This document shows positions 38,621 through 52,066 of a stretch of 64,000 bases of DNA, in pieces. The stretch is from Alteromonadaceae bacterium M269 (GTDB lineage Bacteria; Pseudomonadota; Gammaproteobacteria; Enterobacterales; Alteromonadaceae). Location: the NCBI GenBank assembly GCA_004353515.1, contig SMNZ01000005.1, positions 372,001 to 436,000 on the forward strand. Direction: 5' to 3'. The notes under the pieces are model-generated. The model ran no database searches and was not told the DNA's origin. It worked only from the letters and a program-made list of their open reading frames with translations. The first letter of the stretch is position 1. The number at the start of each line of letters is the position of its first letter. A program made the position numbers and the translations under genes.

Positions 38621-39310
38621 TTACTTCAATTGATACTTTCTAACGAATATGGTAGATAGCGCGAAAAGAGCAAGTAAAAATATACCGCTAGGCTCAGGAA
38701 TATTAGCTGTCACCGTTGGGGCGAAAGCGATATTCGATGATGCTCCCGAACTGAGAGTGTCTCCACCTACACTATCGAATAATGTAAATACTAGACCAAA
38801 GCTTTGTCGTTCCCCCCTAATAACTTCTTGCGCGTAATTTAACAATGCTGTGTTATTAAATGTATTGAGTCCTGTTCTTAGTGTCCCTGTTCTAAATAAA
38901 AACTCATCTACATCGGGACGATTGTTAAAGGTAATGCTGTTTTCGTCAAAGATTGAATCTTGCGCAAAAACGTTAAATCCACCTGGCTCCCGTTGAGTGT
39001 CCCCCTGAAAAATGGACAAACTAAAATCTGATAGGAATAAATCAGTTGTGAGGTTTGATAAATCAAAAGAGAGGTAGGCTATCCTCGTTCCTGGTGATGC
39101 TGCCGGTGTTATAGAAGTTGAAAGATCGGCGGTGTCGGAACGTCCGACTCTTAAAATAGTCTCTGAACCAAAGTTACGATCGGGGTCACCTGAGTTGACG
39201 AAAGCATCAGCTGAAGTGGTTATTGTTATTAGTGATGCATAAGCTGGTGAGCACAAGAATAGTGCTAAGGTTAGTATTTTGAGGGGGGTGAAACGAAAAG
39301 TAATATACAT
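38621..39310 (-). CDS. PEP-CTERM protein with DNRLRE-like domain
   Basis: 229 aa. Signal peptide (about 1-25, ending PAYA), a beta-rich domain beginning ITTSADAFVNSGDPDRNFGSE, the form of the DNRLRE domain, and a C-terminal PEP-CTERM signal (PEP at 205-207, hydrophobic helix, then RKYQLK). PEP-CTERM proteins are cut by an exosortase (XrtA type) and usually go with exopolysaccharide loci. None is in the window, so the processing enzyme must be elsewhere. AAGGA precedes the ATG. Confidence 0.88.
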   Translation of the reverse strand: MYITFRFTPLKILTLALFLCSPAYASLITITTSADAFVNSGDPDRNFGSETILRVGRSDTADLSTSITPAASPGTRIAYLSFDLSNLTTDLFLSDFSLSIFQGDTQREPGGFNVFAQDSIFDENSITFNNRPDVDEFLFRTGTLRTGLNTFNNTALLNYAQEVIRGERQSFGLVFTLFDSVGGDTLSSGASSNIAFAPTVTANIPEPSGIFLLALFALSTIFVRKYQLK

Positions 39311-40853: not shown

Positions 40854-41618
40854 TTAGCGAACGTAGGATGCGCCATTGACGTCAATTGTTGCGCCTGTCA
40901 TGTGTCTTACAACATCAGAGCATAGGAAAGCAGCGGTTTCACCAATTTCTTCAGGCTGCGCTAAATCACCCAGTGGAATTTCACGTGTTGCTTCTTCGTG
41001 TCCCATTTCGTTGAGGATATTAGTAGCAAGATCGGTTTCGGTAAAACCAGGGGTGATTGCAAAGGCGAGGATATTTTCTTTTGCAAAGCCTCTAGCAATC
41101 GACTTTGTTAATGCCAGCATACCACCTTTGGCAGCTGCATAGTGCATGTAGTCTGGTCCGTCACCTCTGTGTCCTGCTCGGCTGGCAATATTAATGATAC
41201 GACCGCCCGATTGCCTTGAACGGAAATGGTTAATTGCATCGCGACACAAGTCTGCTGCCGCCACTAAGTTAAGTTGTAAGGTATTGCCCCAAGTGTCAGA
41301 CCATAGCTCGTCATCGGCTTCAACACCTGCGGTATATTGAGTTCCCGCATTGTTGATAACCACATCTATAGTATGCATCTCTGCTAACACTTCTTTCCAC
41401 ATGACACTTGCTGCGCCCGGTTGTGTCAGGTCGGCTTGGAACATTCTGTGTGAGTCTGGGTTTTCCATGGCTTGGATAACTTGCTCAGTTTTCTCACGGT
41501 TATTTGCGTAATGCAACGCAACGCGAGCTCCTTGTTTAGCAACAGCTATTGCAATGGCAGCTCCTATGCCTCTTGAAGCGCCAGTAACGAGTATATTTTT
41601 TCCTGAAAGCACAGACAT
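40854..41618 (-). CDS. Short-chain dehydrogenase (FabG-like)
   Basis: 254 aa from the ATG at 41618 (AGGA upstream; frame open to 41657). GASRGIGAAIA, DVVINNAGTQYT, INIASRAGHRGDGPDYMHYAAAKGG (Ser-Tyr-Lys), ITPGFTETDLAT and a C-terminal MTGATIDVNGASYVR: complete classical SDR of the 3-oxoacyl-ACP reductase type. Substrate unknown. Its stop is adjacent to the arfB start. Confidence 0.9.
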   Translation of the reverse strand: MSVLSGKNILVTGASRGIGAAIAIAVAKQGARVALHYANNREKTEQVIQAMENPDSHRMFQADLTQPGAASVMWKEVLAEMHTIDVVINNAGTQYTAGVEADDELWSDTWGNTLQLNLVAAADLCRDAINHFRSRQSGGRIINIASRAGHRGDGPDYMHYAAAKGGMLALTKSIARGFAKENILAFAITPGFTETDLATNILNEMGHEEATREIPLGDLAQPEEIGETAAFLCSDVVRHMTGATIDVNGASYVR

Positions 41619-42082
41619 ATTCCTAGGTTTGTCATAAATTGGGCTTAAACTTACCAAATATCAGCCATCAGAAATAGTAACTAACAGTGCTCTGTATCTT
41701 TAATGAGTATCAGTTGATGTTTACAGAGAAATCAAACATGTGCTCTTCCTGGGTGAGATTTGCTTTTTGCGCAAAGGTTAGTAACAAAGTTTGTATTGAA
41801 TCAGATGTAACAAAAAAATTATTCTGCAAAGGAACTTATCGGGCCATTAACCTGCCAAAGTTCATGAGTTGGTTGATCTAAGGTGCTAACTTTCTGAACG
41901 AAATACATACAAAGGTAAATGTATTTTGATAATGATAAGATAAACTACTCAGAGAAAATGTTCTGTATTGCAATTCTAATTCTGAATTTAACATGAACTT
42001 GAGGCTGGAAGCCTTGATCATGAAACTAAATGCTACTTAATATTAAGCAGACGAATTCTTGAAAGAAATCAAGGTGAATATA
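41619..42082. other. Upstream region of the channel/vWA operon
   Basis: 464 bp with no convincing gene; a 64-codon plus frame (41687-41881) is Cys-rich with no family pattern. GATAATGATAAG at 41928-41939 resembles half of a Fur-type site, but this is weak. The operon promoter must be here, since the neighbouring gene to the left is on the other strand. Confidence 0.35.
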
Positions 42083-42613
42083 ATGCGCTTAGTCATATTA
42101 CTATCGACTCTAACAATGACCGGGTTTTTGGCTGGCTGTGCGAGTGCACAGGCTCAATCTCATGAAAGTGCATCTTCACAAAGTGTTACTGACTGTACAA
42201 ACCTGACGCTTGATGGACGTGGGGATGATGAGTTAACCAAGGAAGAACGGATTAAAAAGTTAGAAGGTACGTTATACGACTCGGTTGACCGCTATGACAC
42301 TTGTTTAGGGCAGGCTATCGCTGCTGGTGGCGGAGGTGGAGCCGGTGGAGGCGCTGGTGCAGGAACTGGAAACCAGGGGGAAGGCAGTGGGAGCGGCGGT
42401 TCTGCAAGTACGACTGAAGAGCCAGTGACAGAAGTCCCTCCTCAGGAACAGGATATCCCTGAGACTGAAGCCAGTGGAAATGTACCTAAAGATATTCCTC
42501 CGGCAGACAATGATTCTGTCTTACAAAGACAAATCAGAGAGTTAGCAATGAAAGAGAAAGACCCGAAGAAGAGAGAAGAACTTTGGGATCTGTATCGGAA
42601 GTATAAAAAATAA
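42083..42613 (+). CDS. Lipoprotein with glycine-rich linker (first gene of operon)
   Basis: 176 aa from the ATG at 42083 (AAGGTG upstream; frame open to a TTG at 42059). Lipoprotein signal with lipobox LAGC. After the Cys comes a short domain with two further Cys (TDCTNL, YDTCLGQA) that may pair, an almost pure Gly/Ala/Ser linker of about 30 residues, an acidic Pro/Glu part, and a charged C-terminal helix (MKEKDPKKREELWDLYRKYKK). Family unknown. It probably bridges a membrane and a partner through the flexible linker. Confidence 0.75.
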   Translation: MRLVILLSTLTMTGFLAGCASAQAQSHESASSQSVTDCTNLTLDGRGDDELTKEERIKKLEGTLYDSVDRYDTCLGQAIAAGGGGGAGGGAGAGTGNQGEGSGSGGSASTTEEPVTEVPPQEQDIPETEASGNVPKDIPPADNDSVLQRQIRELAMKEKDPKKREELWDLYRKYKK

Positions 42614-42695
42614 TTAAAATTTGGCGGCTGATTCTGGCTGTCAGATGGGCTTTATTCAGCTATACATAAAGCCAGTTCAACAAAGGAAATAAACA

Positions 42696-43922
42696 ATGAG
42701 CAAACGCTTTTTATTGTGGATGATGTTAAGTAGCCTCGTCGTACTTAGTGGTTGTCAAACGACGGGACGTTCAAGTACAGCTGTTGGACCGAGTGTCGGA
42801 CCGACGGTAGCGACGCCTCTGGGGGAAGAGAAAAAAAACTATAACATCAATTCTAATATCTTCCTTGATGTTGCTATTCCTGTTTTCGATCCTGGTATTC
42901 CAGAAGATTTAGATAAGTTAGAAAAAGATTCAATTTGGCCACAACTGAGACGGGCAGAAGCGAACAGGTTCTCATTGATGACCAAAGAAGCGCTTCAGAA
43001 AACCGGTGTTTTCGGTTCGGTCAGTGTAGCGCCGTCACCACAAGTGACATCAGAGCTTTATGTACTAGGTAAGATCATTGAATCTAATAGTGAAGATGTC
43101 GAAATAAGCATCGAAGTTGTTGATATCAGTGGTAGACGTTGGGGCAAGGAGACCTTTAAACATCGTGTTAGTCCTGGGTTTTATCGGGATAAAAGAAACG
43201 ATGGTGAGGATTCATACGGCCCCATTTTTGAAGATATTGCAGACCATGTTGTTAGCTTGTTGAAGCGCAAAAGAGAAGCACAAAAGGAAGAGCTGAAACA
43301 CATTGCTGATATTCGTTTTGCCCAAAGCTTCTCACCGGAAGCTTTCTCTCAGCATATAACGACAGATAGAAACGGTTATGTTTCACTCGTTAGCTTGCCA
43401 GCTGAAAATGACCCCGCGTATAGCCGTATTCGTCCGCTACGTGTTCAAGATCAGCTATTTCTAGACCGTATTCAATCTCAATACGAAGGCTTTTCTGCGA
43501 AAGTCGATGAGAGTTATCTGACTTGGCAGGAAGAGACTTTGCCTGTGATTTTGGATGCAAAAAAAGCGAAAAGGCAGTCTGTTGCAAGAGGTATTTTAGG
43601 AGCTGTACTTATAGGTGCAGCGGTTGCAGGGGCAGTAGATAGCGACTCTTCTGGATTGCAGGATGTTGCTACAGTAGGCGCGGCTATTGGTGGTGGTTTG
43701 TTAGTAAAATCAGCACTTGATAAAAACCGAGAAGCGAAAGTTCATTCAGCAACTATAGATGAGCTTGGAGAGTCTCTTGATATTGAGATTGACCCACAGC
43801 TAGTTGAGCTTGAAGACAAGACCATTGAGTTAACGGGTACAGCGCAAGAGCAGTACACTCAGTGGAAGTCCCACTTGAAGAAAATTTACGAGCTTGAGCA
43901 AACTCCTGACGTTGAATTATAA
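42696..43922 (+). CDS. Lipoprotein with CsgG/FlgO-like N-terminal half
   Basis: 408 aa. Lipobox LSGC at about 17-20. Residues about 50-190 resemble CsgG/FlgO/TolB-N-type folds (FLDVAIPVFDPGIP, ANRFSLMTKEALQKTGVFGSVSV, ELYVLGKIIESNSEDVEISIEVVD). The middle is charged. Two glycine-rich hydrophobic stretches (GILGAVLIGAAVAGAV and VGAAIGGGLLVKSAL, about 290-335) could be membrane-inserting or a glycine zipper. A helical C-terminus follows. Good ribosome site (AAAGGAAA). Probably an outer-membrane-associated component. Confidence 0.7.
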   Translation: MSKRFLLWMMLSSLVVLSGCQTTGRSSTAVGPSVGPTVATPLGEEKKNYNINSNIFLDVAIPVFDPGIPEDLDKLEKDSIWPQLRRAEANRFSLMTKEALQKTGVFGSVSVAPSPQVTSELYVLGKIIESNSEDVEISIEVVDISGRRWGKETFKHRVSPGFYRDKRNDGEDSYGPIFEDIADHVVSLLKRKREAQKEELKHIADIRFAQSFSPEAFSQHITTDRNGYVSLVSLPAENDPAYSRIRPLRVQDQLFLDRIQSQYEGFSAKVDESYLTWQEETLPVILDAKKAKRQSVARGILGAVLIGAAVAGAVDSDSSGLQDVATVGAAIGGGLLVKSALDKNREAKVHSATIDELGESLDIEIDPQLVELEDKTIELTGTAQEQYTQWKSHLKKIYELEQTPDVEL

Positions 43923-43933
43923 GGAAACCGCAT

Positions 43934-45361
43934 TTGTTAGATGATGCCTTAAAGGATCAAAAGAAAAACGCTAATCAACAATACGCCAAAATAGGTAAAG
44001 CACTGGCAGTTTTAGCTGCTGTAGTAGTGCTTGCTGTTGTTGGCAAAACATTTATTAGCTCCCCTGCACCTGAAGATGTCGTGAACAGTGAGCCTGTTCC
44101 TTCAGTTGCTGGCACAACTAATGTCGATAACGAACAAGCGCGAGATGAGTTTAAGCGTGCATTAGCTGATTTCGACCAGAGTTATACAGATGCAATGGCA
44201 AGCCAAGCACTGGCACGCTGGGCACCTGATGAGCTGCAACAAACCAAAGATGTTTATGACAAAGCGGTCAGTGCATTTGCTGGTAGTCGTTATGTCGATG
44301 CTCTGCAGGCAATAGAGACTGCTCATAAAGACGCACAAGGCTTAGTTAATCGATGGGATCAGGCGTTTCAAGAATCCTTCAGGCAAGCACAAGATGCGTT
44401 TGAAAATAACGAATCGCGTAAGGCTGACTTGCATCTAACACAAGCGCTTAAGTTAAAGCCTGATAATACAGATGCTCTGGCCTTGAAGCAGCGACTATCT
44501 AAGCTTCCGGATATTGAACAGCTACTCGAAGACGTCAGAATTGCACAAACTGAGAATAGCTTGGAACGTGAAGTCGAAGCGATACGTAAGATTATCGAGC
44601 TAGACCCTGCTAGAACTGAAATGGCGCAGCGTCTTGCTGTGGTTAATGAAGCACTTAAGAAAGCTGAATATCAACGTCATATTTCGCAAGGGATGTCAGC
44701 GTTAAATAACGGGCAACTGAGCCAAGCGCAAAATGCGCTGACTAAGGCTAAAAGGCTCTATCCCAATAACAAAGAAGTTCAGGTTTTGGAAACGGAGATC
44801 GCTGCGCAATCCGCCAGCAATCAGCGTCAGATTTGGCGAGACCAAATAAAAGATCTTGTTAATCAGGATGACTGGCAAAACGTATTAGCCATCTCAGAGC
44901 GAGCAAAAAAAGCTTTCCCAACGGATAAGCAGTTTGTCGATTCCTCGGCACTTGCTAATGATATCTTGTCACGCTCTCAACGCATCGACCGATATTTAGC
45001 CCAGCCAGATCGTCTCAAAGACTCGGGTATTCACGCCAATGCAACCGCTTTTGCAGAAGCTTCTCAAGAAGTTGCTCAAAACAGCTTAGGGCTTGTTTTA
45101 AAGTTGGAACAATTCAATGCGGTGCTGGAGACTTTCGCAGAACCCGTTCCTGTTCTAGTTAAATCGGATGGTAAAACCAATATTGTTGTCGTTGGTACAG
45201 GTCGAGTTGGGATGACGAAAGAAAAGTCTATAGAACTCAAAGCTGGGACTTATGTTTTTGAAGGAAGCCGCAAGGGGTATCGCAATGTTAGAGTGACACT
45301 AACTGTAGATCCTTTTGCAGAAAATCAAGAAGTGACGGTAGTGTGTAATGAACGAATTTGA
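43934..45361 (+). CDS. Membrane-anchored TPR protein
   Basis: 475 aa with a TTG start at 43934 (AAGGA at 8 nt; no in-frame ATG before the membrane helix). One N-terminal helix (about 25-45), then about 380 residues of TPR-like helices with patterns such as ALKLKPDNTDALALKQRL, IIELDPARTEMAQRL and AKRLYPNNKEVQVLETEI. The C-terminal 80 residues are a beta sandwich of PEGA type (VGMTKEKSIELKAGTYVFEGSRKGYRNVRV). Predicted periplasmic scaffold. Its 3' end overlaps the next gene by 14 bp. Confidence 0.78.
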   Translation: MLDDALKDQKKNANQQYAKIGKALAVLAAVVVLAVVGKTFISSPAPEDVVNSEPVPSVAGTTNVDNEQARDEFKRALADFDQSYTDAMASQALARWAPDELQQTKDVYDKAVSAFAGSRYVDALQAIETAHKDAQGLVNRWDQAFQESFRQAQDAFENNESRKADLHLTQALKLKPDNTDALALKQRLSKLPDIEQLLEDVRIAQTENSLEREVEAIRKIIELDPARTEMAQRLAVVNEALKKAEYQRHISQGMSALNNGQLSQAQNALTKAKRLYPNNKEVQVLETEIAAQSASNQRQIWRDQIKDLVNQDDWQNVLAISERAKKAFPTDKQFVDSSALANDILSRSQRIDRYLAQPDRLKDSGIHANATAFAEASQEVAQNSLGLVLKLEQFNAVLETFAEPVPVLVKSDGKTNIVVVGTGRVGMTKEKSIELKAGTYVFEGSRKGYRNVRVTLTVDPFAENQEVTVVCNERI

Positions 45362-47333
45362 TAGCAGTATTCGCCAAGCAAAGAAAACGCATGCGGTACG
45401 TAACGCTATTGCAGGTGTCATTTTAGTTCTTGCTGCTATTGCTCTGATTTTATGGTTGGTGGTAATAGAAGCGTTTACCATAGTTGTACAACCAGAAAAA
45501 GCGAGGAACATTGCTCGATTCAGTTTAGAGAGCGGAATTGGCTATGTATCGGGTAACACGCTGTATAAAATTAGTGGTCGTGTTGTTTTACTTGCTGAGG
45601 CAGACAAGTTTATTCCATCAACCGCCGTTATCGATAACAATAGTCAGCCTGTTGTTAATATTGTATTGCAGCCTGTCCCGGGTGAGATTAAAGGCTCAGT
45701 TCAGGGTGAACATGGTGAAACAGCTTGGTTTCTCGATAGTGAACTCAAACAAATCGGAAGTGAATATGGGGTTTCATTAAAACCCGGTAATTACACCGTT
45801 GGCATAGACAGTCCTCATCACCAAGTTGAACAGATTGATGTTGAAGTCAAAAGTGGCGAAGTTTTCGCTTGGGAACCTCAACTAGTCGCCATTCAAGGTC
45901 AGCTAAATATACAAAGCACGCCATCAGATGCGACTGTATTCATTGATAATGAAGAAGCTGGTAAGACGCCGTTAGTTCAAAATGTTGAAGCAAAGAAATA
46001 CTCAATCAAAGTTGAGCGAACTGGGTTTGAGCCAACTACCGAAGTGATTGATGTGACGAGGCAACGTCCAGAAGCACTTAGGCGCTATAATCTTAAGCCA
46101 CTGTCTGCTGCGTTATCTCTAACATTGGAGCCTGCTGGTGGAACTCTGCTTGTCGATAACAAGGTTGTTAATGACAGTCGCCGTATTCCTCTTGATTCCA
46201 ATAAACAACATGTTGTGAGCTACCAAAAGCCTGGTTACTTCACCGAAACAAAAACTTATTCTGTGAAAGCAGGTCAAACAATTTCGGATGCTTTTAAGCT
46301 GCGCGAGAATATTGGTGACGTGAGCATTCGCAGTAACCCTGTTGCTAGTCTAACAGTTAATGGTCGAAGCGCTGGAAGTACACCTTTTAATCAAAAGCTT
46401 AGAGCGGTTGACTATAAAGTAGTCATAAGTAAACCAGGTTATCGCTCTGTTGAACGCACTATCACACCCTCAAGCGAAGCAAAGACAACTTTAGATATTC
46501 AGTTGCTAACTGAATATGAAGCAAGACGCAGAGAAGGCAAACCCTCGGTTGCCCAAACTATGGGTATTCAGTTTGTCCAAGTGAAACCCACAGCGTTTTC
46601 AATGGGCTCAAAAAGCAATGAAAAGGGACGCCGTCGCAATGAGTTTGTTAAGGAAGTCGATTTCACTCGCTCTATTTATGTGAGTCGCCATGAAATAACT
46701 GAATCTCAGTTTGCACGCTTTAAAGGCGCTTCAAGTACGAGTAATTTACCCGCTTCGGATATGAGCTGGTTCGAAGCCATTCGGTTCTGTAACTGGCTAA
46801 GTGAGCAAGAAGGGCTTCCTAAATTTTATCGGATCCAAAATGGCCGTTATCAGGGTATCAATCCTTCTGCGAATGGGTTTAGATTGCCCACAGAAGCCGA
46901 ATGGGAATGGTTAGCTAGAAAAGGTAAACGAGCAACTGAAACTGCCTTTGTCTGGGGGAATTCTGAAAAGCTCCCCGAAGAAGCGGGTAATTTCGGTGAT
47001 GAGTCTATCAAATCTCAAACCGCACTCTACTTCAAAGATTACGATGACGGCTACGCGAATAAAGCGCCGGTCGGCAGTTTTAAAGCGGATCGCTTAGGCC
47101 TATACGATTTAGCGGGCAATGTTAGTGAATGGGTTCACGACTCTTACACCAACCAGCCACCGTTGAAAGCACAAGGTTTAGTTGATGACTTTGGTTCTCC
47201 AAGGGGAGAGGGACACGTGTTCAAAGGTGGACACTATCTCAATGGACAGATTCAAGACGTTCGTGCGGCCTATCGAGAACCGTCGAGTTCGCCGCTGCCT
47301 ACGTTGGGCTTCCGTATCGTACGTTATGAATAA
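45348..47333 (+). CDS. Membrane protein with PEGA repeats and FGE-fold domain
   Basis: 661 aa. Membrane helix (about 18-42), then several PEGA domains (best at about 185-240, LNIQSTPSDATVFIDNEEAG, and 325-380, VSIRSNPVASLTVNGRSAG), and a C-terminal formylglycine-generating-enzyme/SUMF1-like domain (about 400-661; MSWFEAIRFCNWLSEQEG, FRLPTEAEWEWLARKG, GLYDLAGNVSEWVHDSY, GGHYLNG, LGFRIVRYE). The catalytic Cys pair of true FGE is not seen, so it is probably a binding or structural version. Starts inside the TPR gene (14-bp overlap). Confidence 0.85.
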   Translation: MNEFDSSIRQAKKTHAVRNAIAGVILVLAAIALILWLVVIEAFTIVVQPEKARNIARFSLESGIGYVSGNTLYKISGRVVLLAEADKFIPSTAVIDNNSQPVVNIVLQPVPGEIKGSVQGEHGETAWFLDSELKQIGSEYGVSLKPGNYTVGIDSPHHQVEQIDVEVKSGEVFAWEPQLVAIQGQLNIQSTPSDATVFIDNEEAGKTPLVQNVEAKKYSIKVERTGFEPTTEVIDVTRQRPEALRRYNLKPLSAALSLTLEPAGGTLLVDNKVVNDSRRIPLDSNKQHVVSYQKPGYFTETKTYSVKAGQTISDAFKLRENIGDVSIRSNPVASLTVNGRSAGSTPFNQKLRAVDYKVVISKPGYRSVERTITPSSEAKTTLDIQLLTEYEARRREGKPSVAQTMGIQFVQVKPTAFSMGSKSNEKGRRRNEFVKEVDFTRSIYVSRHEITESQFARFKGASSTSNLPASDMSWFEAIRFCNWLSEQEGLPKFYRIQNGRYQGINPSANGFRLPTEAEWEWLARKGKRATETAFVWGNSEKLPEEAGNFGDESIKSQTALYFKDYDDGYANKAPVGSFKADRLGLYDLAGNVSEWVHDSYTNQPPLKAQGLVDDFGSPRGEGHVFKGGHYLNGQIQDVRAAYREPSSSPLPTLGFRIVRYE

Positions 47334-47343
47334 GGCGAGAAGA

Positions 47344-47514
47344 ATGATGAAACAGAATCAGATGCCAAATAGCAGGCAAAGTAAAACTAGTCGTAGAAAA
47401 CACTGGCTTTTAGTGGCCGCTATTGTTGGCCTATTAACAACGGCTTTTGCAGCAGTTGCGCTGCAAGGCAAAATTAGCTTGGACTCACCTGTTAGCTTCC
47501 CGGTGGATATTTAA
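47344..47514 (+). CDS. Small single-pass membrane protein of the operon
   Basis: 56 aa, from the ATG at 47344 (AGGCGAG upstream; alternatives 47326 and 47347). Basic N-terminus (NSRQSKTSRRKHW), one helix (about 21-41, LLVAAIVGLLTTAFAAVAL) and a short outer tail. N-in, C-out topology by the positive-inside rule. It fits exactly between the FGE-fold gene (stop 47333) and the channel gene (ATG 47517), which supports it being real. Comparable small subunits occur in other channel complexes. Confidence 0.65.
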   Translation: MMKQNQMPNSRQSKTSRRKHWLLVAAIVGLLTTAFAAVALQGKISLDSPVSFPVDI

Positions 47515-47516
47515 CT

Positions 47517-48302
47517 ATGGCAAATGAAAACTCAAAGAACCCTTTTATTGTCGGCTTAATCGTACTTGTGAGCGCCATAGTTGTCGTGCATCTCGCTTAT
47601 GTTGGTTACATCATTCCATCTGCTAACGCTGTATTGGCAGTAGATGGTGCAGCGGGAGCGCGAAACTTCTTTGTGATCATCAAAGACTTGGAACAGGAAG
47701 TGTGCTTTATCGCTATGATTTGGTGTAGTTACTTCATCATAAGCAAGAGTACAGCGCTGTTTAATGACCGCTTTTTGTTTAAGGTAGACTTCTTATCTGA
47801 TCAAGACAAAAACGGTGAAATCAATTTAACTGAAGCTTTGAATAAGCTTGAAGAAAGTGAGTTTAGAGATAAGCCTGTATTCCAAACTTGGATCACTTGT
47901 ATTCGTCGTTTTATCCATACTGAAGATGTGCAAAATGCGTCTGACGCTATTCAAGCCAGTGTCGATTCATTGGCTGTGAGACTCGAAGCGGAAAACTCGA
48001 TGATCCGTTACTTGATTTGGGCTATTCCGTCGATTGGCTTCATCGGTACAGTGCGTGGTATCGGACAAGCCTTAGCGCAAGCGGACAAAGCACTGGCAGG
48101 CGATATTTCTGGAATGACTGACAGCTTGGGTGTGGCTTTTAATTCAACATTGGTTGCTTTGTTTATCAGTATTATTTTGATGTTCTTACTGCATCAACTT
48201 CAACGTCTTCAAGATGGTTTGGTTGTCGATACTCAAGCGCACTGTGAGAAGTATCTTTTGCGCCACCTACACAGAAATAAGAGTCAGCAAGTTAGCGCAT
48301 AA
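47517..48302 (+). CDS. MotA/TolQ/ExbB-like ion channel protein with EF-hand-like loop
   Basis: 261 aa. Helices at about 9-32, 59-77, 162-185 and 203-226. The C-terminal half carries the family core: MIRYLIWAIPSIGFIGTVRGIGQAL and MTDSLGVAFNSTLVALFISIILMFLL. Four helices and a mid-length cytoplasmic loop resemble MotA more than ExbB. In that loop residues 95-106 (DQDKNGEINLTE) fit a canonical EF-hand calcium loop (D1, D3, N5, E7, N9, E12). With the ExbD-like helices of the next two genes it should form the motor of the operon (inference). Confidence 0.85.
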   Translation: MANENSKNPFIVGLIVLVSAIVVVHLAYVGYIIPSANAVLAVDGAAGARNFFVIIKDLEQEVCFIAMIWCSYFIISKSTALFNDRFLFKVDFLSDQDKNGEINLTEALNKLEESEFRDKPVFQTWITCIRRFIHTEDVQNASDAIQASVDSLAVRLEAENSMIRYLIWAIPSIGFIGTVRGIGQALAQADKALAGDISGMTDSLGVAFNSTLVALFISIILMFLLHQLQRLQDGLVVDTQAHCEKYLLRHLHRNKSQQVSA

Positions 48303-48320
48303 GCTCTGTAAGGATTATTA

Positions 48321-49391
48321 ATGAGACGCCGTTCAGCTGACGGATTTAACTTAGCTTTCCTCGATGTGATGGCCTGTGGATTAGGGGCTGTCATACTGAT
48401 TTTTATGCTGGTGAAGTTTCACGCGCAAACCGCAATTCCGAGTGATGAAATAGAGCGCCTAAAAGCAGAACTGGAACAATTAACTAGCGTTCAACAAGCG
48501 TTGAATGAAGATGTAAAAAAAGCCAGCGAAGCAAATGCTAGAAAGAGCAGTGAAGTTGCTCTAACTAAAGAGCAAATCGAAGCGTTAATTAAACAAGCTC
48601 AGGACAATCAAAAGAGTGTCGATGAAAAACTCTATGCCTTGGCTAATCTAGAAACAGCCGCTGCGGCAGCGGCACCTAAACAAGCGGATGATTCACTCAC
48701 CATACAAGGTACGGGTGAGGAAAACTATCTGTTAGGTTTGAAAGTTGAGGGGCGTCATATAGGCATACTCGTGGATTACAGTGCTTCTATGACCGAGCAA
48801 AAGCTTGCTGAAATTATCAAACGTAAAATAGGTTCGGATGCAGAAAAGCAAAACGCTCCCAAATGGCAACGGACATTGAGAGTGGCAAGGTGGCTTTTAG
48901 CGAGAGCACCTAAAACCTCCGAAGTGGCCGTGGTTGCCTTTAATAAAGAAGCTCAGTCTCTTGGCTCAAAACCAATAGTATCGGCAGGCAATGAGGCTGA
49001 TCTCCAAGCATTATCAAGCGAGTTGAGTAAGCTGGTTCCAGCCAATGGTACCAATCTGCAACTGGCACTTAAAAAGATGGTTGAGGTAAACCCTGATATG
49101 ACAAACCTCTATGTCATTACAGATGGTTTGCCAACGTTAGCAGATCCAGATGATAAACAGTTAACACGTAACCTCCGTTGTCGTTCCTTTGGTGGTCGAG
49201 CTTCGACAATCAGCGGAGAATGTCGCGCTATTTTGTTTAATCGCAGTTATCAGAGTGCCGGGTTAGGCAATACAGAAGTTAACGTTATTCTGCTACCTCT
49301 TGAAGGTGACCCCGATGCGTCTCATATGTACTGGGATTGGACATCTGATACAGGTGGTTTGACACTCACGCCTGCGGATAGTTGGCCATGA
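48321..49391 (+). CDS. ExbD-like helix fused to coiled coil and vWA domain (1)
   Basis: 356 aa. Residues 8-32 (FNLAFLDVMACGLGAVILIFML) look like the ExbD/TolR membrane helix, including the D15 that would carry ions. A coiled coil follows (about 40-110), then an Ala/Gln linker and a von Willebrand A domain (about 145-330) with MIDAS D152-x-S154-x-S156, T244 and D268 (ITDG). The usual ExbD periplasmic domain is absent. AAGGA at 7 nt before the ATG. The stop overlaps the next gene's start (ATGA). Confidence 0.85.
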   Translation: MRRRSADGFNLAFLDVMACGLGAVILIFMLVKFHAQTAIPSDEIERLKAELEQLTSVQQALNEDVKKASEANARKSSEVALTKEQIEALIKQAQDNQKSVDEKLYALANLETAAAAAAPKQADDSLTIQGTGEENYLLGLKVEGRHIGILVDYSASMTEQKLAEIIKRKIGSDAEKQNAPKWQRTLRVARWLLARAPKTSEVAVVAFNKEAQSLGSKPIVSAGNEADLQALSSELSKLVPANGTNLQLALKKMVEVNPDMTNLYVITDGLPTLADPDDKQLTRNLRCRSFGGRASTISGECRAILFNRSYQSAGLGNTEVNVILLPLEGDPDASHMYWDWTSDTGGLTLTPADSWP

Positions 49392-50347
49392 AGCGAACAC
49401 GTGAACAGTTAGAGGTTTTCAACCTCTCATTCCTCGATATTATCTCCTGTGCATTCGGCGCAATCGTTATGCTGATCCTACTGGCAAAAAACGGTGAAGA
49501 AGGCGACTACAAAGATACGAGTGAGCTCACTAAGTTGTTGCTAGGAATCACGCAATCTGAAAGTGAAAACGAAAAGCTCACCACGACATTGGATACACTT
49601 AACCAGCAGATTAAAGACCTTGATGCTCAAGCTCAAACTGTGACGGCAGAGAAGGCTCAACTCGAGAGCGATATTGCAGCTGCCAAAGAGTTGCAGATTC
49701 AACTTGATGAGTCTGCGTCGGGGCTGCAGGAAACGATAGAAGAACGAAAACGCGCTGCGCTCAATCGAAATACAGCTGATGAACGCGATGAAGAGGTCGG
49801 CGGTATCCCGGTTGATAGCGAATACGTGATTTTTATTGTTGATACGTCTGGCAGTATGAAACAGATGTGGAATAGAGTCCTAAAGCAAATGGATAACATT
49901 CTGAATAACCATCCGAAAGTTAAAGGCTTTCAGGTTATGAATGATATGGGGCGTTATTTGGCTGGTGCAAAAGGTCGATGGCATAAAGATACACCACGTA
50001 TTCGCTCGACTATTTTGGCACAAATGCAGAATTGGTCGGCGTTTTCAAACAGTAGCCCGGTGGAAGGCCTTCAAGAGGCTTTGAAGACTTACGCAAAACC
50101 GAGAGCCAGCTTATCGATTTATATATTAGGTGATGAATATACGGGCGGTTCTTACGATCCTGTAATCAATACGTTGAATGAGCTGAATACCGATAGAAGA
50201 ACAGGCGATCGCATCGCTCGGGTTCACGCGATTGGTTTTATTCCTAATGTAACTGGCAGTAATTTTCAGACAACTCGACAGTTCGGTACGCTAATGAGAG
50301 AAGTTACTCGCCAAAATCGAGGAACCTTTATTGCGTTACCGAACTAA
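49388..50347 (+). CDS. ExbD-like helix fused to coiled coil and vWA domain (2)
   Basis: 319 aa from the ATG at 49388 (frame open to a TTG at 49382). Same design as the preceding gene: membrane helix with D17 (FNLSFLDIISCAFGAIVML), a long coiled coil (about 42-125), and a vWA domain (about 145-319) with MIDAS D152-x-S154-x-S156 (VDTSGSM) and ILGDEY. The two share the FNL(A/S)FLD motif but diverge in the vWA part, so they are probably distinct subunits of a heteromer. Last gene of the operon; 4-bp overlap with the gene before. Confidence 0.85.
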   Translation: MKRTREQLEVFNLSFLDIISCAFGAIVMLILLAKNGEEGDYKDTSELTKLLLGITQSESENEKLTTTLDTLNQQIKDLDAQAQTVTAEKAQLESDIAAAKELQIQLDESASGLQETIEERKRAALNRNTADERDEEVGGIPVDSEYVIFIVDTSGSMKQMWNRVLKQMDNILNNHPKVKGFQVMNDMGRYLAGAKGRWHKDTPRIRSTILAQMQNWSAFSNSSPVEGLQEALKTYAKPRASLSIYILGDEYTGGSYDPVINTLNELNTDRRTGDRIARVHAIGFIPNVTGSNFQTTRQFGTLMREVTRQNRGTFIALPN

Positions 50348-50518: not shown

Positions 50519-50707
50519 CTAAATATTCGAAAGAAGGGCATTCTTTTCTTTCTGAATGCGCATATAAATCTCTGAACGATGTACATCGACATCTTTAGGT
50601 GCATTGACACCAATGCGGACTTGGTTGCCTTTAACAGTTAGCACTGTCACTGTAACAGAGTCACCAATCATCATGGTTTCTCCAACTTTTCGGGTGAGAA
50701 TTAACAT
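50519..50707 (-). CDS. csrA: Carbon storage regulator CsrA
   Basis: 62 aa RNA-binding dimer that blocks or stabilises mRNAs at GGA motifs. [37 protein letters not shown]: full match to gammaproteobacterial CsrA, including the RNA-contacting Arg44 region. Convergent with the channel/vWA operon. The usual neighbours alaS and tRNA-Ser are not adjacent on the side visible here. Confidence 0.97.
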
Positions 50708-51013: not shown

Positions 51014-52066
51014 TTGAATCAGAGTTTTTCCCATTCGCTAATAATTAAAGCAGTGGCTTTTTCTATATTTTTGAAGAGTCGCTATAGAAGCAGTTTCGTA
51101 TTCGCACTCTTATTTCTATTCTTAGGGTGCTCATCTCCTGAGCCAGATATACGCTCTACAGGACAATATAGGTTTACTGAAGAATTTGTTGTAACGGCTG
51201 ATCTTTCCGATGATGGTACCAAAAGTGTCATTGTGACTGACTTTCCACATATAAGTGTCTGGGATAACCACTCTCACGCGTTGATTGCGCGTTGGAATGC
51301 TGATCTTCTTGGGGTTGTTCCCCTATTCGTTAGTATCTCTTATGACAATCGACAGTTATTGGTAACAGGCGAAACTCAGGTTGTGTTATTGGATATCGAA
51401 CAAAATGCAGAAGTAGGTCGATGGCCAATTGCCTCAATCGTTGATGATAAAAAAGTGACGTCAGCTGGGTATTTCATGCGGGGCCAGTTGTTTGCACTAG
51501 GTTTGAACGACGGTAGTGTCATAGTGGCGGATATTAATGATGGTGTTTTTAAAAAAGCTTACTTACATGAGAGTAATGTCACCCATTTAGTGGTAGATGA
51601 GTTCGGTCAATACCTGTATACAGCGGCACATGATGGTGCGGTCAATAAAGTTTCACTAGCTGATTTAGAAGTGGTTCAAACACGTCAGTTTGAGCACAGG
51701 CTCTCTTCTTTGAATCTCGACAATGATTTCGGGCGTTTGTTTATTTCTGACACATTGGACGAACAAGTTGTTGTCGATAGTCAATCTCTTAAGACGGTTG
51801 GAACATTAGACTATTTTGAACGTTGGCGTTGGTTTAGAGAGGCGCTATTTGTCGAAAACAGTCGATTCTTAATTACAGCATCTTCGAAGACAGGTATGTC
51901 TTTATGGAATATAGAGACTGGGGAACAGGTAGGCTTCTGGGATGCTAAGGTGTATTCGTTTGCTTCTCACGTCTCTAAGATGACAATTAACAAGGACAAT
52001 CAGTTAGTCACATTGACGAACGATGCCGTTGTCGAGTTTTGGGACTATGCCGCTGCACTGAGATAA
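51014..52066 (+). CDS. Lipoprotein with WD40-like beta-propeller
   Basis: About 331-350 aa. The protein has a lipoprotein signal with LFLGC, then repeats of propeller type (VTADLSDDGTKSVIVTDF, ISVWDNHSHALIARW, LYTAAHDGAVNKVSL, MSLWNIETGEQVGFW, VEFWDYAA). The start is uncertain: TTG at 51014 is the outermost, but TTG at 51071 would give the shortest clean signal (MKSRYRSSFVFALLFLFLGC), and neither has a strong ribosome site. Probably an outer-membrane-anchored periplasmic scaffold; partner unknown. Confidence 0.75.
   Translation: MNQSFSHSLIIKAVAFSIFLKSRYRSSFVFALLFLFLGCSSPEPDIRSTGQYRFTEEFVVTADLSDDGTKSVIVTDFPHISVWDNHSHALIARWNADLLGVVPLFVSISYDNRQLLVTGETQVVLLDIEQNAEVGRWPIASIVDDKKVTSAGYFMRGQLFALGLNDGSVIVADINDGVFKKAYLHESNVTHLVVDEFGQYLYTAAHDGAVNKVSLADLEVVQTRQFEHRLSSLNLDNDFGRLFISDTLDEQVVVDSQSLKTVGTLDYFERWRWFREALFVENSRFLITASSKTGMSLWNIETGEQVGFWDAKVYSFASHVSKMTINKDNQLVTLTNDAVVEFWDYAAALR

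Follow-up and report, generated by a model that had tools for sequence, protein, structure and literature searches.

We analyzed a 64,000-nucleotide stretch of the genome of Alteromonadaceae bacterium M269 (contig SMNZ01000005.1, positions 372,001 to 436,000 of the forward strand; the window) and focused on an operon of eight plus-strand genes at 42083-50347 of the window, which we named g1 to g8. We found that the eight genes behave as one co-inherited unit, also among distantly related bacteria. Few ion-driven motors of the bacterial envelope are known: Ton, Tol, the flagellar stators, type IX secretion (T9SS)/gliding, and Zorya. We lean toward the reading that the eight genes encode another, an ion-driven machine exerting force across the envelope. 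Both "ion-driven" and "machine" are drawn here from sequence and predicted structure. Its putative core is a channel, g6, with two partners, g7 and g8, that carry vWA domains.

Co-inheritance of the eight genes

We collected loci through matches to g2, g6, or g8. Profiles were built from 19 of the resulting 54 loci, which therefore match by construction. Loci L031 to L035, where weak g6 relatives lie in other gene settings, were excluded from the 54; L132 to L136 were added later, L132 to L134 as members with genes missing and L135 and L136 as nonmembers. All eight genes were found, on one strand, at 42 of the 54 loci (42 of 57 with the later three), and 41 of these 42 complete loci keep the gene order of the window. 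The first-pass annotation of the window had treated the eight genes as a set, and this held up, as the genes are not scattered. Ten of the 12 incomplete loci among the 54 stop at a contig end, and 11 of the 15 among the 57 are cut by contig ends, including that of G368. The other two of the 12 are L117, which lacks a match to g1 only and in which a g1-like C terminus is readable, and L118. In L118 (9400-14400, genome G242), we saw a decayed operon with fragments of g1 to g3 and with breaks among repeated transposase-like open reading frames; this genome has no flagellin match.

Of 59 genomes, counting the window's own, 13 matched g6 at 1e-3, and nine of these matches reached 1.2e-49 or better. 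Ten more loci came from a scan of species genomes, nine in Methylophaga and one in a metagenome-assembled genome labeled Alphaproteobacteria. Among 369 genomes of the class, the g2 profile matched 27, with one copy each, and the g8 profile matched 41 at 1e-3, of which 28 were strong (E<1e-70, a cut set after the table was viewed). The g2 matches and the strong g8 matches share 24 genomes (Fisher p 2e-30, uncorrected for kinship). Three genomes had g2 only: G156 and G346, at contig ends, and the decayed G242. Four had g8 only: G270 and G370, in which g2 was not found beside the rest, G368, with a short contig, and G373, with broken matches. Among 200 genomes of the phylum, a sample that overlaps the class sample, the g2 and g8 profiles matched the identical 11 genomes; a single family outside that class accounts for nine of these.

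The channel and its vWA partners

The Pfam family MotA_ExbB (PF01618) matches g6 at 6e-14, above its cut-off. The predicted structure of g6 (mean pLDDT, a model confidence score, 89.3) has the TolQ/ExbB fold: the closest solved structure is TolQ 8odt (Z 15.4, 3.9 Å, 209 residues), and the second is ExbB 5sv1 (Z 13.9). These matches bear out the annotation of g6 as an inner-membrane TolQ/ExbB-type channel. Because the part matched to TolQ begins at residue ~42, the N-terminal helix at residues 9-49 is additional to the TolQ fold. A sequence search of solved structures with g6 returned MotA at 0.45 alone. E59, T178, and T211 are invariant in the 42 complete loci, and we take T178 and T211 to be the pore positions of the MotA/TolQ/ExbB family.

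Each of g7 and g8 has one hydrophobic segment followed by a coiled coil and a vWA domain. The aspartate in the membrane helix is invariant (g7 D15, 42/42; g8 D17, 42/42), and so, in both proteins and all 42 loci, is DxSxS, the MIDAS metal-site motif of vWA domains. Thus, two single-helix partners with a membrane aspartate and a vWA head, as first annotated, are indeed present. VWA_2 matches g7 at 7e-7 (30.3 bits, above the Pfam cut-off of 27). The pair W355-P356 of g7 is invariant in 42/42 loci and forms the extreme C terminus in 16 aligned rows. Compared with solved structures, g8 matched mainly coiled coils, with a few weak matches to vWA domains. No ExbD, TolR, or OmpA family was among the Pfam hits of the eight proteins at E 0.1.

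The TolQ-like channel fold and the pore Asp/Thr pair are shared with Tol-Pal and Ton (TolQR, ExbBD), and the domain of g2 resembles the N-terminal domain of TolB (Z 9-11). The operon might then be a second system of the Tol-Pal kind that constricts or stabilizes the outer membrane. However, it has vWA heads and not ExbD/TolR domains, its channel has the extra N-terminal helix, no transducer of the TolA/TonB type was recognized among the eight, and their Pfam hits include no TolA, TolB, TolR, or Pal family. Moreover, all 27 genomes tested, which we hand-picked from ~45 for flagellin and TolB (26 with the operon and one with remnants), already have a TolB_N match, so the operon is no replacement for Tol-Pal. 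We consider a second Tol-Pal system quite unlikely.

We also tried and rejected a role as a flagellar accessory. Nine of the 27 genomes have no flagellin match and six of these nine have a complete operon, so the operon is not an obligate flagellar part. The other three are G237, which lacks a match to g1 only, G100, cut by a contig end, and G242, with remnants. In G017 (L023, 61-19499), the operon lies by eye within a flagellar cluster, with FlgK/FlgL-like genes before it and flagellin and FliD/FliS-like genes after it.

Zorya also uses a MotA/TolQ-type channel beyond the Tol, Ton, and flagellar roles. A Zorya-kind anti-phage defense, in which an ion motor reads the envelope, would fit the weak PADLOC hits of ZorA to g6 (4e-4) and the structural match of the g6 model to ZorA (Z ~10-10.5), which, like that to MotA (Z ~9-10), is under the tool's telling level for helical proteins. 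In contrast, apart from ZorA, PADLOC gave only weak hits, to g7 and g8, which are coiled-coil proteins. Neither ZorB nor an effector family was found among the eight, their Pfam hits include no OmpA-type anchor, nuclease, or helicase family, and g6 is without the long ZorA-type tail. The gene order is also kept over deep divergence, which appears unlike a defense island. We find this alternative highly improbable.

The core resembles a motor in the literature. PMC12204202 (Mol Biol Evol 2025 msaf138) predicts a TolQ-like channel with paired pore-helix (TPH) vWA proteins. In the passages compared, its "TMH-tethered vWA homologs" co-occur with tolQ homologs, mainly as heterologous pairs and without tolR/exbD; AlphaFold3 models put the pore aspartate within the threonine ring, and the function is given as unknown. 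The family is placed in Proteobacteria and Verrucomicrobia, the query came from Idiomarina loihiensis, and a TPR gene goes with a different vWA family. As far as those passages tell, the g6-g7-g8 core is the kind of motor predicted there and probably belongs to the same family, in that a TolQ-like gene stands beside two different pore-Asp vWA genes with no TolR/ExbD. The operon differs, judged by the main text of that paper, in adding PEGA/formylglycine-generating enzyme (FGE), CsgG-fold, short tailed, and FHA proteins. That main text nowhere uses the words PEGA, formylglycine, or CsgG (its gene-cluster Fig. 4c and supplement lie outside the comparison), and the passages compared tell of no short tailed protein and no FHA protein.

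The first-pass annotation knew of no named system with this composition and missed this published prediction. Its proposal of a candidate undescribed system stands in part: the motor core is predicted in PMC12204202, but no named family or defense system matches the whole. We found no description of the whole operon and its function in the open-access literature, which leaves out most subscription papers and bioRxiv preprints, and the passages of PMC12505986 and PMC4619616 that were compared hold nothing about the eight-gene operon. New here are the conserved tail of g5, the FGE fold lacking its cysteines, and the compact and extended architectures.

Some weak relatives of g6 lie in another cassette (L032, 1500-12500; L135, 3100-7800; L031, 9100-13300), in which a channel occurs with FHA-, PP2C-, and trypsin-like proteins. 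The L032 cassette includes a kinase, and L032 and L135 have a single vWA protein whose helix is, by eye, SALDLFASGMGAFILI or similar. From sequence, this cassette looks like a signaling-linked cousin of the g6-g7-g8 motor. At L033 (8672-11075), a channel gene is followed by two small proteins with like helices, NLSFLDTLSCSLGG and MSLLDIISCALGA, and no vWA heads are in sight; this set is possibly a minimal paired-partner motor.

Envelope proteins and the short protein g5

The lipoprotein g2 has a predicted structure that contains a domain of the PelC/CsgG/FlgT-type fold. Its lipobox-like pattern, a feature of PelC and CsgG too, is present in 39 of 42 relatives, and the domain (residues ~50-195) resembles CT253, XCC0632, PelC, FlgT, and CsgG (VIA Z 10-12) besides TolB-N. 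The CsgG/FlgO-like character first assigned to g2 agrees with this fold. Unlike those proteins, g2 continues beyond the domain into a long helix that includes a Gly-rich hydrophobic stretch. A sequence search of solved structures with g2 gave nothing useful. The alignment of g1 shows conservation at both ends, an N-terminal helix and a C-terminal hook (QIREAA..DP..REKLWxEYRKYK), joined by a Gly/Ser low-complexity linker.

Both g3 and g4 had been annotated as PEGA-bearing anchors, which we can uphold for g4 (PEGA, 1.5e-28) but not for g3, where none of 14 family members matched PEGA at E 0.01. One of the 14 matched CarboxypepD_reg at 0.0068, and Pfam assigns TPR_2 to g3 at 2.7e-6. In g4, the best PEGA repeat lies at 45897-46064 and is followed by an FGE-sulfatase domain (8e-37) at 46569-47324. 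The catalytic cysteines of FGE sit near the C terminus of the domain. Because the final 110 matched residues of g4 contain no Cys in 41 of 42 relatives, g4 probably has the FGE fold without enzyme activity.

An ion motor and an FGE-fold protein are likewise combined in T9SS. This likeness raises the alternative of a secretion or surface motor of the T9SS/gliding kind, with counterparts of GldLM (PorL/M) and of GldK/PorK, and the FGE domain of g4 does match GldK (9e-22) and PorK structures (1e-24). However, FGE enzymes match it equally well or better, g4 scores 77.9 bits against a GldK cut-off of 350, and it has PEGA repeats and an N-terminal membrane helix in place of a lipobox. No other T9SS family was among the Pfam/NCBIfam hits of the eight proteins, a result that does not extend to a genome-wide T9SS search. 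A T9SS-like motor is therefore very unlikely in our judgment.

The short gene g5 was identified at all 42 complete loci through a tail that departs little from F-P-x-[DN]-I-stop. The variants are LPIDI (L025), YPVDI (L119), and, at the incomplete locus L117, MPSDI; the pattern was broadened after exceptions had been seen. In loci of the extended type (below), very roughly 50-150 disordered-looking linker residues, by eye, precede the tail. The annotation as a 56-amino-acid membrane protein is right about the hydrophobic run and needs refinement beyond it. Because an A-x-A site (loose pattern) follows this run in 39 of 42 relatives, the sequence suggests that g5 has a signal peptide that is cleaved, which in the compact type would leave a free peptide of about 15-20 residues.

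We considered whether the tail is a sorting signal for many clients and rejected this for its exact form. Among 11 genomes hand-picked from ~45, exact FPVDI-stop occurs once in each of nine, every time at g5 by position. The two remaining genomes have no such site; their g5 tails are FPIDI and FPADI. A more speculative proposal, which we rate as improbable, is that a tiny secreted peptide is central to a motor with an obligate two-kind rotor, with the tail as a bound latch, or the peptide as cargo, of a ring of g2. If true, a single ion motor would power, at the outer membrane, either export of the peptide or a dedicated peptide latch.

Architectures, a candidate mechanism, and gene neighborhood

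The complete loci fall into architectures that differ in accessory genes, for which profiles were seeded from five of the 14 extended loci plus 14 extra proteins. In the compact type (25 of 42 loci, the window's included), none of the five accessory profiles matches in the fetched stretch. Most compact loci viewed have differing flanks; the close relatives L124 and L126 share an upstream gene. The extended type (14 of 42) adds a TPR gene, whose TonB_C match is weak and below the cut-off, and two lipoprotein-like genes, all at varying positions relative to the operon. In 13 of these 14, an extra gene lies between g6 and g7, and ten match an M48 peptidase profile, one of them weakly. Three further loci carry solely the extra gene. 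A midpoint-rooted tree separated 23 compact loci from the 19 others with full support, with a long-branch warning for L116, L106, and L098. The compact loci L102 and L112 group with the others and may, on sequence, have lost the extra gene; their g4 has an N-terminal extension that is FHA-like by eye and for which Pfam reports none.

The extra protein bears on a further alternative, a sensor: the vWA heads would gate ion flow through g6, read the envelope with g3, g4, and g2 as antennae, and signal to the cytoplasm, in extended loci to an FHA protein. FHA scores above the Pfam cut-off in the extra proteins of L099 and L114 (9e-10 and 2e-12), and none was found at 0.01 in those of L028 and L029. 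Profile A6, built for the extra protein, gives FHA and weak DnaK-like matches (0.017). The sensor would also fit the weak g6 relatives that adjoin FHA- and PP2C-like genes, two of them with a single vWA gene. On the other side, the compact type has no such extra gene, and, as in motors, no variation is seen at the pore Asp and Thr. We judge a sensor unlikely.

We prefer an ion-driven machine, which might work as follows. ExbBD and TolQR are 5:2 complexes. ZorAB is described as one in the abstract of its report. By analogy with all three, five g6 subunits would enclose one g7 helix and one g8 helix. Because g7 and g8 differ and both occur in all 42 complete loci, a g7/g8 heterodimer is the simplest reading by that analogy. 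AlphaFold3 models of a TolQ + paired pore-helix vWA family, as given in the compared passages of PMC12204202, agree with such a machine. If the rotor is a heterodimer, the motor would be asymmetric. Ions crossing the two aspartates would turn the g7/g8 helices inside the g6 pentamer, and this motion would reach the periplasm by way of the coiled coils and vWA heads. There, the vWA metal sites may grip acidic ligands on the periplasmic parts of g3 and g4. Force could pass on to the outer membrane through g1 and g2, with g2 as the outer-membrane end and g1 as a flexible tether, and the tail of g5 may latch onto one of g3, g4, g1, g2, or the vWA parts. The weakest step is the output, which we suggest only tentatively and with considerable doubt: a lipoprotein assembly at the outer membrane would be pulled on or gated, for export or remodeling there, beside Tol-Pal. 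All steps beyond the fold assignments are inferred.

Several observations weigh against such a machine. The structures predicted here are those of single chains. The VWA_2 match of g8 (0.015, 16.3 bits) is below the cut-off of 27. The model of g2 (pLDDT 74.6) is unreliable at residues 19-45 and 301-349, and Foldseek gave a single match for g2 below 1e-3, PelC at 7.6e-4. The lipobox-like pattern of g1 is found in 20 of 42 relatives and missing in 22, so g1 lipidation is not universal. The unit itself also varies. In L106 (G149), g6 lies behind g8. In the 18 kb fetched from G270, neither g2, g6, nor the tail was found. G370 (L133, 4693-6254) has no g2 in the fetched stretch, its g4 matches the first ~390 of 665 positions only, and transposase-like open reading frames lie between g3 and the shortened g4; G270 and G370 belong to one family, and in the family of L133, f116, g6 is behind g8. 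Finally, although pairwise distances of the seven larger genes correlate with one another (0.76-0.96 across the 42 loci), any jointly inherited genes would be expected to do so.

If the machine is real, it would be another motor that pushes or pulls across the envelope, with a conserved parts list, and the motor context would now include an FGE fold lacking its cysteines and a short secreted peptide. With such a list, the heterodimeric rotor, metal-site heads, and outer-membrane end could each be tested directly. The operon is present in named Methylophaga strains, so a deletion strain may be reachable.

The features of the operon are collected in Table 1. From g1 to g8, the distances between consecutive genes are 82, 11, -14, 10, 2, 18, and -4 bp, the same gaps and overlaps as first annotated for eight packed plus-strand genes when we recomputed them.

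Table 1. Coordinates of the operon features and of the upstream neighbor in the window (aa, amino acids; TM, transmembrane)
Feature	Coordinates	Strand	Details
Upstream flanking gene	40854-41657	-	Flanks the operon
g1 lipoprotein, 176 aa	42083..42613	+	LAGC lipobox; Cys codon 42137-42139
g2 lipoprotein, 408 aa	42696..43922	+	Cys codon 42753-42755; +2 not Asp
g3 TPR anchor, 475 aa	43934..45361	+	One hydrophobic segment ~23-41; TPR repeats; conserved C-terminal domain
g4 PEGA/FGE-fold anchor, 661 aa	45348..47333	+	One hydrophobic segment ~22-40; PEGA repeats; FGE-fold domain 46569-47324
g5 short protein, 56 aa	47344..47514	+	Signal peptide or TM helix; ends ISLDSPVSFPVDI-stop
FPVDI-stop tail of g5	47497..47514	+	Exact DNA pattern occurs nowhere else in the window's genome
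g6 TolQ/ExbB-fold channel (predicted), 261 aa	47517..48302	+	E59 47691-47693; T178 48048-48050; T211 48147-48149
g7 vWA1	48321..49391	+	D15 48363-48365; coiled coil; MIDAS-type DxSxS 48774-48788; C-terminal WP
g8 vWA2	49388..50347	+	D17 49436-49438; coiled coil; MIDAS-type DxSxS 49841-49855

Promoter-like sites at the operon were fewer than in shuffles in the promoter scan, and terminator-like sites were about equal to shuffles. The window's genome (5.6 Mb) has six MotA_ExbB matches, of which g6 of the operon is the weakest. A search of plasmids with g6 gave three matches, weak and partial. Both flanks of the operon are minus-strand genes. The one directly downstream (50519-50707) is csrA-like by eye and is followed by a plus-strand gene for a WD-repeat-like lipoprotein (51014-52066, also by eye). 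Farther upstream, on the minus strand at 38621-39310, we noted by eye a protein with a PEP-CTERM-like C-terminal ending, IPEPSGIFLLALFALSTIFVRK.

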